The notes under the pieces are model-generated. The model ran no database searches, was not told the origin of the DNA, and worked only from the letters and a program-made list of their open reading frames with translations. The position numbers and the translations under genes are program-made. This document shows positions 9,176-47,623 of a stretch of 64,000 nucleotides of DNA, one piece after another. The DNA is from Planctomycetota bacterium. Lineage in GTDB: Bacteria > Planctomycetota > Phycisphaerae > Phycisphaerales > SM1A02. Location: the NCBI GenBank assembly GCA_021414025.1, contig JAIOPG010000004.1, forward strand, positions 124,001-188,000, written 5' to 3'. Within the stretch, counting starts at the first letter, position 1. Each line of letters starts with the position of its first letter.

Positions 9176-11689
9176 GTGACGGACGCATCGAATCAAGAGA
9201 GCCTGCAACTGTGCCGGGCGGTGTCCGAGGCCCTGCGCGGCGATGCCATGACCGGTGCCTGGGCCGACCGCATGAAGGGGCAGCCGGGCGTGTTGGTCTC
9301 AGGAGGTCCCAGCCTCTCCCGCAATGGCGAGGTGCTGGCCGACCGCGATTTCTTCGACCGCTTCGTTCTGGTGGCGACCGCCGCCGCCGCGGGATCGCTG
9401 CGCGCGATGGAGCTGAAGCCGCAATTGGTCGCCGCGACCGCGCCCCTGGGCGAGGCGATCCGGCAATGGCTGCACTCCATGAACGCCAATTGCGTCTGCG
9501 CCGTCGAGCAGGCCGGCGCGGATTGCGGCGGCATCGGCCTGCCCGCGCCGGCGGGCTTGGTCGACTCGCTGCTGGGACACCTGTTGTTGCGGCATCTGGG
9601 CTGCGACCCGGTGGTGCTGGTCGGATTCGACCTGGCCTTCATCGACGGCGTCGCCCACGCCAAGGGCAACGAGCTCGACCTGGAGTGGAGCGCGCAGATT
9701 TCTCCGGTGCGAAGCTGGGACTGGTGGCACGCCCATTGGATCGCCGGTCACTCGCGCGACCTGCGGGCCGAGCCCGCGCGGAGCGGGCAGAGCGTGCTCA
9801 CCAACCGCGAGCTGCAGCGCGAGTTGCAACTGCTCGAGGCGGCCTTCGCCCAGGACCTGACCCAGGGTTTGCAGGTGATCGACGCGACCGAAGGGGGAGT
9901 GGCCAAGCGCAACGTCCAGGAGGAAGCGCTGTCGGAGTGCATGGCCCGTCTCGCGACGAACCGAAATCCCAAGATGCGATGGGCGCAGCGGACCCGTTCG
10001 AAGGCGTCGGCGGCGAAGACGGTGGTGGTCATCCGCGAGGCGCCGCGCGTGGCCGCGGTGCTGGCGATCGATCCGGCGCGCGGAGGCACGGGCGTGGAGC
10101 GCTCGCTGGAGCTGGAGTTCGGCGGCCGATCGGTGCTGCGCCGAACGATCGACCGGCTTCTGCAGAGCGAGGAGATCGAGCATGTCTGCCTGGTGGCGCC
10201 GGAGAACTGGGATCACCGCGCGGCCCTGGAAGGACTTGAACCCAACTCGCATCTCCACCTGCTGCGCGTGCCCGGCTCCGCCTTCGGTTCGGGCCACGGG
10301 GACATCCGCCTGGCGCGGGCGTGGAGCGACTCCTGCTGCCGCGGCGGAATCGCGAATCTCTCCGTCTACGACGAGGCGTATTCCGCCAAGGCGGCGCTGC
10401 AAGCCTGCGAGGAGGTTCACGCCAACGCCGCGCTGATCTGCGGCGCCGATTGGCCGCTGATCGCCGTGCAGGAGTCCTGGGGGGTGCGTGGTCTCGTGCA
10501 GCGCTGGCGCGAGGCGGCCGAGCCGTTGAAATTCGTCTGTTCGCTTGCGGCGGTCGGCGTCGGATCATGCCTGCTGCCGATCGAAAGCGTGCGGCTGCTG
10601 GCCGGAGGGTCCGCGGTTTCCATCGGCCAGTGGATCGAGGAGGTCGCCGACGAGCTGGAGGCCGGCGGCGCGGCGAAGCTCGGTCCGATCGTGGCCGTCC
10701 CGCAATACGCCGCGAGCGTGGCCGAGCGCCTGATCATGGACACGCCACGATCGATCCAGCGCATCCGGCGGGCGCTGGAGCCCTTGCTGCACGGTTCCGA
10801 ACTCTCCGCGCTGGCGCAGTTCGAGGCACTGGACCGCCACGCGGGCGCGCCGCCGACCTTCGTACCCCAGCTGCTCACCATCGAGCTCAACACCGGGCGC
10901 CGCGGCTGCGGTCTGGCCAGTCCGCACCGATTCGGCACGTTGCAGCGACCCACGATGACGCCCAAGCGGATGGACCGGATCCTCTCGCGGATTTCCGAGA
11001 CCCGCGATGTGGTCGTGACCCTGGCCGGCGCCGGCGATCCACTGGTGCACCCCGACGTTGCCGCGTTCGCGGCGCAGATCCGCAGGGCGGGCGCGCTCTC
11101 CCTTGCGGTGCGCAGCGAGCTGCTCTCGCCCGACGCCCTGGAGAAGCTGGCGGAGATCGATCCCGATGTGGTTACCGTCGACCTGCATGCGACGAACTCC
11201 GAGGAATACTCGCGCATGATGGGCTACGACCGGTTTGACTTTGTGCAGGAGGCGATCGAGCGCGTGATCCGCGGCCGGCGCCGCGAGCCGGGCGCCGCCG
11301 AATGGATCGCCCGCCCCTGGGTGCTGCCGCGCATCGAGCGCTTGCGCGACATGGTGGACCGCATCGCCGAATTCGGCGAGCGCTGGCGGAACCGGGCCGG
11401 GGGCTATTGCGTCGACTCGCCGCCGCAGGTCGACCCGTGGGGCGACCCCATCCCGGACGCGCCGATCTCAGCGGAAGGTTGGATCTACGGCAGCAGCCAC
11501 CAAGATCGATCGGCCCTCACGGTGCTTTCGGATGGCCGCGTGCCCGCCCGCAACGACGACCTGCTGGGCACCACCTCGGTCGGCAGCGTGGACAGCGAGG
11601 AATTGCTCACGCTCTTCCGCTACGCGCGGCAGCACCGGGCGCGGACGGCGGTCAAGCGGCATGAACTGCTCTCCTTCGTGGAAAGGTGA
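9176..11689 (+). CDS. Three-part protein: DUF115/MptE-like + nucleotidyltransferase-like + degenerate radical-SAM-like
   Basis: 837 residues from GTG 9176. Residues about 15-175 look like the DUF115 (MptE-like) fold found in flagellin/surface glycan genes: GVLVSGGPSLSRNG, a LKPQLVAAT segment, and LGCDPVVLVGFDLAF. Residues about 290-540 resemble an SpsF/CMP-sugar-type nucleotidyltransferase (AVLAIDPARGGTG, then GGRSVLRRTIDRL). Residues about 560-810 follow the radical SAM barrel order (LLTIELNTGRRGCG, VVVTLAGAGDPLVHPD, VVTVDLHATNSEEY) with a SPASM-like end, but the CxxxCxxC triad is missing; only one Cys remains, so it probably cannot hold a 4Fe-4S cluster. A surface-glycan role is inferred. 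An open frame extends upstream to 7691 but is antisense to two other genes. Confidence 0.75.
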   Translation: MTDASNQESLQLCRAVSEALRGDAMTGAWADRMKGQPGVLVSGGPSLSRNGEVLADRDFFDRFVLVATAAAAGSLRAMELKPQLVAATAPLGEAIRQWLHSMNANCVCAVEQAGADCGGIGLPAPAGLVDSLLGHLLLRHLGCDPVVLVGFDLAFIDGVAHAKGNELDLEWSAQISPVRSWDWWHAHWIAGHSRDLRAEPARSGQSVLTNRELQRELQLLEAAFAQDLTQGLQVIDATEGGVAKRNVQEEALSECMARLATNRNPKMRWAQRTRSKASAAKTVVVIREAPRVAAVLAIDPARGGTGVERSLELEFGGRSVLRRTIDRLLQSEEIEHVCLVAPENWDHRAALEGLEPNSHLHLLRVPGSAFGSGHGDIRLARAWSDSCCRGGIANLSVYDEAYSAKAALQACEEVHANAALICGADWPLIAVQESWGVRGLVQRWREAAEPLKFVCSLAAVGVGSCLLPIESVRLLAGGSAVSIGQWIEEVADELEAGGAAKLGPIVAVPQYAASVAERLIMDTPRSIQRIRRALEPLLHGSELSALAQFEALDRHAGAPPTFVPQLLTIELNTGRRGCGLASPHRFGTLQRPTMTPKRMDRILSRISETRDVVVTLAGAGDPLVHPDVAAFAAQIRRAGALSLAVRSELLSPDALEKLAEIDPDVVTVDLHATNSEEYSRMMGYDRFDFVQEAIERVIRGRRREPGAAEWIARPWVLPRIERLRDMVDRIAEFGERWRNRAGGYCVDSPPQVDPWGDPIPDAPISAEGWIYGSSHQDRSALTVLSDGRVPARNDDLLGTTSVGSVDSEELLTLFRYARQHRARTAVKRHELLSFVER

Positions 11690-46324: not shown

Positions 46325-47623
46325 TCAACTCGTGCCGGACAGAGACCACGTCGCGCCGTCGCGATCGACGCGTCGGTAGAGCGTGTCGCGCTCGACCGGC
46401 TCGCACCCCGCGTTGCGGATGGCGCGGACCAGATCGTGGACGGAGGTCTCCTGGTGGTTTCCTTCTCCGACCGCCTTGGTGATGTCGTACCACACCACGG
46501 TGCCGTCCAGGTCGTCGGCGCCCGCGCCCAGCATGAGCTCGGCCATCGGCAGCGTCTGCATGATCCAGAAGGCCTTCACGTGGGGGAAGTTGTCCAGCAT
46601 CAGCCGGGCGATTGCCAACGTGCGCAGATTCTCGATGCCGGTCGGCGCCGGCAGATGCTCCAGCTCGCTCTCGTTGGGGTAGAAGGGCAGGGGAATGATC
46701 GTCTGGAAATATCCGGTCGAAAGTCCCTCATGTCCGGCCATGGGCAGCCGCTGACGCGGATAGAACTCCTCCGGACCGGTCAGCACCACTTCGTCGGGAT
46801 GCTTCATGCGGATGCCCTGCGCCCGCGCCCACCCCCGCAGCGTGAAATCCTGCTGCGCCCGCAGCAGCCCCAGGTGATGAAGCCGTTCGGGACGGCGGTC
46901 GATGTGGCCGTAGAGCATGGTGGCGTTGGAGTTCAGTCCCAACTCGTGCGCGGCGCGGTGCACATCCAGCCAGTGGTCGCCGCGGATCTTTCCCTTGAAG
47001 GCCTCGTCGTGCACGCGGTCGTCGAAGACTTCGGCGCCGCCTCCGGGCAGCGAACCGAGCCCCGCATTCATCAAGTCGCGCAGCACCGCCTTGATGCCCT
47101 CGTAGTCCTCGCCGCCGCGCTTGGACACGCGCTGCAGGTGGACGATCTCCACTGCGGTGAAGGCCTTGATGTGGATCCCCGGCGCCGCGGCCTTCATGGC
47201 CCGCAGCACGTCCAGGTACCACTCGAAGGGCAGCCAGGGATGGAGACCGCCGACCATGTGGATCTCGGTGGCGCCGGCGGCCGCGGCTGCGGCCGTCTCC
47301 CCGGCAATGTCCTGGGCCGTCTTTTCATAGGCGCCCTCCTGGCCCTTCTTGCGGTGGAAGGCGCAGAACTTGCACGAGAGCGCGCAGACATTGGAGTAGT
47401 TGATGTGACGGTTGACGTTGTAGAAGGCGCGCTTCCCGTGCAGGCGCCGACGCACCAGGTCCGCCAGGGCCAGCACGCGGTGCAGGTCGCGCGTCTCGTA
47501 GAGGCGCAGGCCCTCCTCCTCGCTCAGGCGGATGCCGCCAAGCACCTTGGCCTCGATCGCGTCCAACGCGGCGTCATGCCCGGGCGGAAGCGTCGGAGCG
47601 AGCGTGGGATTCAACAGAGTCAT
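46325..47623 (-). CDS. mqnE: Aminofutalosine synthase MqnE (radical SAM)
   Basis: 432 residues. Radical SAM enzyme that makes aminofutalosine in the futalosine menaquinone pathway. Radical SAM cluster motif Cys80, Cys84, Cys87 in SNVCALSCKFCAFHRK; then HMVGGLHPWLPFEWYLDVLRAMK, HIKAFTAVEIVHL, and GLGSLPGGGAEVFDDRVH, all characteristic of MqnE rather than MqnC. The N-terminal 50 residues are longer than usual. No other mqn gene is in the window. It starts seven bases after the M16 gene stop, so it is the last gene of that unit. Confidence 0.92.
   Translation of the reverse strand: MTLLNPTLAPTLPPGHDAALDAIEAKVLGGIRLSEEEGLRLYETRDLHRVLALADLVRRRLHGKRAFYNVNRHINYSNVCALSCKFCAFHRKKGQEGAYEKTAQDIAGETAAAAAAGATEIHMVGGLHPWLPFEWYLDVLRAMKAAAPGIHIKAFTAVEIVHLQRVSKRGGEDYEGIKAVLRDLMNAGLGSLPGGGAEVFDDRVHDEAFKGKIRGDHWLDVHRAAHELGLNSNATMLYGHIDRRPERLHHLGLLRAQQDFTLRGWARAQGIRMKHPDEVVLTGPEEFYPRQRLPMAGHEGLSTGYFQTIIPLPFYPNESELEHLPAPTGIENLRTLAIARLMLDNFPHVKAFWIMQTLPMAELMLGAGADDLDGTVVWYDITKAVGEGNHQETSVHDLVRAIRNAGCEPVERDTLYRRVDRDGATWSLSGTS

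Follow-up and report, generated by a model that had tools for sequence, protein, structure and literature searches.

A Maf-type transferase homologue fused to two signature-less enzyme modules in a planctomycete genus without flagellum genes

The chain and its segments

A 64,000-nucleotide stretch of contig JAIOPG010000004.1 from a Planctomycetota bacterium (hereafter the window) carries, at 9176..11689 on the + strand, a gene for an 837-residue chain in which a DUF115/Maf core is joined to an SpsF-like part and a radical S-adenosylmethionine (SAM)/SPASM-like part. The frame runs uninterrupted from a GTG to the stop at 11689, and the GTG start is unproven, yet similarity to nine other frames of the same genus starts at residues 1-22. 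A first-pass annotation of this DNA had proposed the three-part architecture, which is borne out by Pfam and by profiles of 15 aligned chains and 18 standalone homologues.

The DUF115/MptE-like segment (residues 1-275; 9176..10000, on the + strand like all features of the chain) corresponds to the central part of Maf. Its match to the MptE-like family PF01973 scores 31.8 bits, just below the cut-off of 34.6, and 38 bits with its neighbours in the frame; five relatives from the genus score 32.0-39.5 bits, three of them above the cut-off, and the segment is matched in all 15 aligned chains. The SpsF-like segment (residues 288-545; 10037..10810) has a nucleotidyltransferase-type fold and no RxGS motif. 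On the single window sequence NTP_transf_3 reaches 12.9 bits against a cut-off of 27, which is not significant, and PF02348 is absent from the listed matches; NTP_transf_3 is found in 10 of the 18 standalone relatives, and the profile of these 18 matches the cytidylyltransferase 6oew (E 8.5e-9).

The radical-SAM-like barrel (residues 546-740; 10811..11395) matches Radical_SAM (PF04055) with 33.6 bits against a cut-off of 29.5. The match places residues 592-697 on profile positions 26-136, so that the first 25 positions of the profile, home of the cysteine triad, are unmatched; the same five genus relatives score 21.8-32.3 bits, two at or above the cut-off and three below. The expected CxxxCxxC site reads ELNTGRRGCGLAS (residues 570-582; 10883..10921), with Arg575, Gly579 and Ser582 at the first (C1), second (C2) and third (C3) cysteine positions. 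Downstream lies GAGDPLVHP (residues 618-626; 11027..11053), which we take to be the counterpart of the GGEP motif of radical SAM enzymes. The two motifs quoted in the annotation, GAGDPLVHPD and VVTVDLHATN, are indeed found at residues 618 and 665. Invariant positions across the 15 aligned chains include the GPSL motif of the DUF115 part (residues 44-47; 9305..9316), E570, T573 and R575 at the old triad site, GxGDP and H625. The SPASM-like tail (residues 741-837; 11396..11686) has none of the four cluster cysteines in the window. A second radical SAM match in the window, at 46883-47404 on the - strand, scores 55.8 bits, above the Pfam cut-off.

Fused chain, standalone form and gene pair

A protein search found the chain or pieces of it in 34 of the 41 related genomes, the wider occurrence of the architecture that the annotation had proposed to look for, and a fusion through chance or assembly error was rejected on this count. 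A planctomycete 16S probe target matched 0 of the 41 genomes, a result that speaks neither for nor against the Phycisphaerae named in the annotation. A single frame, 1124-1310 residues long, encodes the chain in thirteen relatives outside the genus. Families f5 and f6 encode the DUF115 part and the SpsF/radical-SAM-like part in separate open reading frames (ORFs), which adjoin in five of the six genomes. No genome has more than one copy of PF01973, which is found in 33 of 41, with weaker matches in the genus (14 of 16). In G009 (L036:5437-7277) the chain is broken into two ORFs that overlap, through either a frameshift or an assembly error.

Among the 15 aligned chains Pfam recognises MptE-like in 15, Radical_SAM in 12, Maf_flag10_N in 8 and SPASM in 2. 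Their profile matches PDB entry 5mu5 (E 3.4e-5; labelled uncharacterized in the PDB), presumably the Magnetospirillum Maf structure. The profile of the 18 standalone homologues matches BtrN (E 1.6e-16) over barrel and tail, with the tail cysteines aligned.

The top NCBIfam match of the window protein is TIGR04321 (spiro-SPASM), at 45.7 bits against a cut-off of 250. No protein scores above that cut-off in 298 genomes of the class (231 with any match) or in 294 of the phylum (246 with any match), and the weak matches take in ordinary radical SAM proteins. Among loci of the class, the 30 that match TIGR04321 best encode standalone proteins of 501-713 residues from stop to stop, one of them cut. 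Ten neighbourhoods of the standalone form were chosen from the window's phylum and fetched (L287-L296, of which L287 is from the window's order): a DUF115 (Maf) gene lies immediately upstream in 10/10, and five of them contain a recognisable NeuA-, NeuB- or NeuC-like gene. This constant position directly downstream of a Maf gene indicates that the window protein is a fusion of an ancestral pair of partner genes, one encoding Maf and the other the SpsF/radical-SAM-like protein.

Loss of the radical SAM triad

There is no CxxxCxxC anywhere in the window chain. At the aligned site the motif is present in 0/59 rows from the window's phylum (the window, 18 from its order, 29 from its class and 11 from the phylum) as against 15/15 ordinary radical SAM proteins, and a check of the whole proteins gave only two matches, both off-site, in the tail of L074 and upstream in L091. 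The first-pass annotation was thus right that the window chain has lost the triad; as a peculiarity of this chain the loss does not stand. Its description of the third part as cysteine-free is likewise inexact, since the segment carries C578 and C745. In the tree set, from which family f2 is absent, position C1 is Arg in each of the 19 order rows; many homologues from the class and the phylum have another residue there.

The annotation had suggested looking for genomes in which the cysteines persist; these were found solely among spirochaetes. Of 18 genomes that include spirochaetes, 15 carry TIGR04321 above the cut-off, and the triad is present in nine of the 15 spirochaete proteins and absent in six. 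One triad-bearing spirochaete homologue (L282:6940-10299) is flanked by genes for a PPIC-type prolyl isomerase and a cytidylyltransferase. Ten spirochaete stretches, searched with our own profile and, for ten neighbours from three of them, with Pfam, gave no recognisable DUF115 gene.

In a tree of these proteins the 59 phylum rows form one side of a branch with an SH-like approximate likelihood-ratio test (SH-aLRT) support of 97.8, and the triad state changes at least four times. The tree was built quickly; one of its rows is long and 19 are unusual in composition, and L074, labelled 'class' in it, belongs to the window's order. Left out were L093 (cut by a stop), L262 (203 residues), L107-L109 (from the same genomes as L053, L054 and L058) and family f2. 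By itself the tree cannot separate gain from loss of the triad; loss is far likelier. On the sequences compared, the absence of the triad appears to be an old state of a whole phylum family related to TIGR04321, not private to the window chain, and the triad appears to have been lost repeatedly. An unrelated TIM barrel was considered for the third segment and rejected on the Radical_SAM match of the window chain. As the annotation had held, and as the BtrN profile match also indicates, the segment is classed here as a radical SAM homologue, not as a member of the family in the enzymatic sense.

SPASM cysteines and the cytidylyltransferase signature

The auxiliary cysteines of the SPASM/twitch domain (PF13186) have a different distribution from the triad. 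Four SPASM-type cysteines are invariant in 18/18 diverse standalone relatives, in which the triad is gone, and they are kept in all 15 spirochaete TIGR04321 proteins. A CxxC tail is present in 29/29 class rows and 11/11 phylum rows. Within the 19 order rows all four cysteines are found in four, one in a single row and none in fourteen.

RxGS is the nucleotide-binding signature of the cytidylyltransferases NeuA, KdsB and SpsF. In a regular-expression test, run on the first 140 residues and then repeated over whole proteins of both sets, the signature is found in 0/59 chain-family rows versus 15/15 cytidylyltransferases of the operons; these 59 rows are a different set from those of the tree and comprise 58 distinct proteins, since L054 and L108 are one gene. 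Of the 59 tree-set proteins, 14 contain a bare RxGS at some other position, but none has it where the signature of the SpsF-like part would lie. The annotation had named a CMP (cytidine monophosphate)-sugar-synthase/SpsF-like domain: the fold is upheld by the profile match to 6oew, and with the signature missing an active CMP-sugar synthase domain in the chain is unlikely.

Operon context and flagellin outside the genus

We clustered the genes neighbouring the chain in 19 loci from flagellated members of the order. After the chain comes a cytidylyltransferase/NeuB-cluster gene in 18/19 (L055 is the exception) and a NeuC-cluster gene in 14/19. The whole trio follows in 12/19 if L058 and L059, which have long cluster-1 proteins, carry fusions of the L057 type. 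In family f2 the cytidylyltransferase is the one member of the trio at this place, and in L033, a locus of that family, a weak sulfotransferase-like gene also comes after the chain. Neighbours were checked against Pfam and NCBIfam in L049, L033 and L057; in L049 NeuC is above its NCBIfam cut-off, and NeuB and the cytidylyltransferase are above their Pfam cut-offs.

Outside the genus, the chain is present in 19/20 flagellin-bearing and 0/5 flagellin-less genomes (Fisher p = 1.1e-4, kinship not corrected), and the 19 genomes with both chain and flagellin all carry NeuB as well. FliG is found in 20/20 flagellin-bearing genomes; G018 and G019 have weaker FliG_C matches and are without flagellin.

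Two further genes were seen around the operon. A protein of ~820-1170 residues (clusters 18 and 26) lies near it in nine relatives of families f1, f3 and f4, for example at L046:4498-7233 and L049:4038-6818, the two that were scanned, which have no Pfam match. In seven of the nine a small cluster-3 gene stands in between; in L049 it is DUF4440-like, below the cut-off.

The window's genus

The chain is found in 15 of the 16 genus genomes, and the one genome without it (G004) is 73% complete. Neither flagellin nor FliG was detected in any of the 16 genus genomes. NeuB is present in two, the window's own among them, and KdsB, which makes CMP-Kdo (Kdo, 3-deoxy-D-manno-oct-2-ulosonic acid), is above the cut-off in all 16. 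No Neu genes lie beside the chain in 11 genus loci, the window plus ten fetched, of which two are short. The link to nonulosonate and flagellin glycan pathways suggested by the annotation, and the glycan genes it proposed to seek among the neighbours, are thus recovered in the relatives, whose operons hold a cytidylyltransferase, NeuB and NeuC (18/19 flagellated order loci), and fail in the genus, where flanking Neu genes (0/11 loci) and flagellin are both missing. In the absence of these genes and of FliG, the present target of the genus chain is probably not flagellin.

The genus chain is also shorter. The stretch before GPSL is 43 residues in the window and 43-121 in six genus chains (the upper values from stop-to-stop frames) versus 243-315 in nine long chains, likewise measured on stop-to-stop frames, and the linker after the core is 46 residues in the window and 46-62 in the six genus chains versus 181-219 in the nine long ones. 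Maf_flag10_N is matched in 0/6 genus chains.

Selection was estimated with our own Nei-Gojobori script over four segments of the chain. In the two closest pairs the ratio of nonsynonymous to synonymous rates (dN/dS) is 0.02-0.28 over the four segments, with dS < 0.9 in every segment. Set against its nearest relatives, the window shows in each of three comparisons a lower proportion of nonsynonymous differences (pN) in the triad-less barrel than in any other segment; the pair G007-G013 does not show this. With dN/dS below 1, the genus chain appears to be kept under selection.

Discussion

Maf enzymes are described as joining CMP-activated nonulosonates to Ser/Thr of flagellin in the cytoplasm (PMC11339370, PMC4065374), and a Clostridium Maf as accepting both CMP-Kdo and CMP-N-acetylneuraminic acid (CMP-Neu5Ac) (PMC11339370). 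In the Magnetospirillum Maf structure a sialyltransferase-like centre is flanked by a Rossmann-like domain on the N-terminal side and a helical domain on the C-terminal side (PMC11339370, PMC4065374); the functions of the outer domains are called unclear in one of these accounts (PMC11339370). Within the Phycisphaerae, the freshwater Nemodlikiaceae, with a mean genome of 2.6 Mb, are described as decorating their surface with sialic acids (PMC6461901).

We favour, at a probability of roughly 0.55, the reading that the chain is a Maf-type transferase core on a carrier of two dead modules which, in the window's genus, has been re-aimed at a non-flagellin acceptor. The window chain would consist of a trimmed Maf-type (DUF115) core and two enzyme homologues without their catalytic signatures, one SpsF/NeuA-like and the other a radical-SAM/SPASM barrel. 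In the flagellated relatives the full-length chain would most likely attach a nonulosonic acid, supplied by the adjoining Neu genes, to flagellin in the cytoplasm; the SpsF/radical-SAM-like half would serve to bind either the CMP-sugar or the acceptor, or to place it correctly, and would carry out no radical chemistry. In the window's genus the chain would most likely transfer a CMP-activated ulosonic acid, from a CMP-Kdo-like donor, to another acceptor. The genus chain is without the Maf N-terminal region and without 120-170 linker residues (a separate gene for these was not sought); with these parts outside the core, which could serve flagellin, missing and the core and carrier kept, we infer a new acceptor and such a donor.

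Several observations weigh against this reading. The DUF115 part has diverged in the genus, where its best stretch scores 22-44 bits vs 102-135 in the other relatives, and it might have lost its activity. Away from the closest pairs selection is weaker, with dN/dS of 0.26-0.34 for G007-G013 (dS about 1) and of 0.35-0.59 between the window and G007, which belongs to a far clade of the genus (dS 1.1-1.3); the remaining pairs are largely saturated. A nonulosonate (pseudaminate) donor is possible in the window's own genome, which has a pseudaminate-type polysaccharide locus (G000:C5 150000-169900, L297) in which PseI exceeds its cut-off and a further NeuB-family gene lies along with a PFTS polysaccharide protein; the NeuB family is found in one other genus genome only. 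Outside the genus, G022 has flagellin and neither the chain nor NeuB. In family f2 (four genomes, L031-L034) flagellin is present and the fused chain has no barrel motifs and no SPASM tail, so the pseudo-radical-SAM part is dispensable at least there. Structure predictions from the window sequence alone, with no alignment, have a mean predicted local distance difference test (pLDDT) score of 39.3 for residues 546-837 and 36.5 for the whole chain, both too low for the models to be used.

The barrel might instead still be an enzyme, one that binds SAM or a nucleotide through GxGDP, with Arg575 replacing the cluster, and performs non-radical chemistry on a CMP-sugar. The invariance of GxGDP and H625 in 15/15 chains would fit such a role, as would Arg at C1 throughout the order rows and a barrel that is the most constrained segment in the window's clade. 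That constraint does not extend to the pair G007-G013, many homologues in the class and the phylum have a residue other than Arg at C1, and family f2 has lost the motifs. We consider this alternative unlikely.

Decay would account for other features of the genus. If flagella and NeuB were lost, the chain could persist for a time as a functionless relic that slowly decays, and a genus with no flagellin or FliG and mostly no NeuB, missing Maf regions, low DUF115 scores, dN/dS of up to 0.59 between distant members and the split frame of G009 would all be expected of one. Against decay, nine genus loci besides the window have long open frames, and the five of these that were aligned are 43-71% identical to the window. 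The low ratios in the two closest pairs, and a triad-less barrel with the lowest pN in the window's clade, also speak for maintenance, and the chain is absent from four further genomes of the same family that also lack flagellin. We consider a relic unlikely.

A third alternative, in which the DUF115 part would be a pterin diphosphokinase of the MptE kind and the product of the chain a cofactor rather than a glycan, is very improbable: PF01973 bears the MptE name and the chain profile weakly matches the pterin pyrophosphokinase entries 8sd5 (E 0.019) and 8sbu (E 0.081), but the top PDB match is 5mu5, the DUF115 part of four relatives best matches FlagModPseD in NCBIfam (far below its cut-off of 670), Maf_flag10_N is present in 8/15 chains and the operon neighbours are Neu genes.

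Our favoured reading builds on kinds of protein that are already known, namely Maf transferases, SPASM proteins and TIGR04321. The central domain with GPSL is shared with the Maf/DUF115 transferases (PF01973, NF050051 FlagModPseD, PDB 5mu5), and the longer relatives of the chain match Maf_flag10_N, adjoin Neu genes and track flagellin, whereas the window form has the central part only, an SpsF/radical-SAM-like extension and a genome in which no flagellin was found. Both the window protein and the scanned standalone relatives have TIGR04321 as their top NCBIfam family; the window protein differs in being fused to DUF115, in falling far short of the family cut-off and in lacking both the triad, kept by nine of the 15 spirochaete members, and the SPASM cysteines, kept by all 15. 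Standalone homologues match BtrN and other radical SAM/SPASM or twitch enzymes over barrel and tail, but the chain family has no CxxxCxxC and the window form no tail cysteines either. TIGR04347 (pseudo-SAM/SPASM), compared by family name alone, provides a curated precedent for a pseudo-radical-SAM protein; L070 matches it weakly, at 28.1 bits, and the cut-off of 525 is not approached. The relatives share the fold of the cytidylyltransferases NeuA, PseF and SpsF (PF02348) by profile, but their SpsF-like part is without RxGS and a separate, signature-bearing cytidylyltransferase stands in the operon. In the open-access literature we found no account of this Maf partner gene, of the double signature loss, of the fusion or of persistence without flagellum genes.

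The Maf transferase is accompanied here by a conserved partner, and neither half of that partner looks catalytically active. More tentatively, and with somewhat less than even confidence, we propose that a radical SAM/SPASM enzyme and a CMP-sugar synthase were turned into non-catalytic parts of a transferase throughout the phylum, forming a system for protein glycosylation, and that the version in the window's genus has come away from the flagellum and been re-aimed at a new protein or envelope target. If so, the repeated loss of the triad among spirochaetes would be the same conversion occurring again. The homologues form a natural series, from triad and auxiliary cysteines, through auxiliary cysteines only, to neither, and on to a stripped Maf in a genus without flagellum genes, a series suited to asking what the partner does and which parts of Maf serve flagellin alone.

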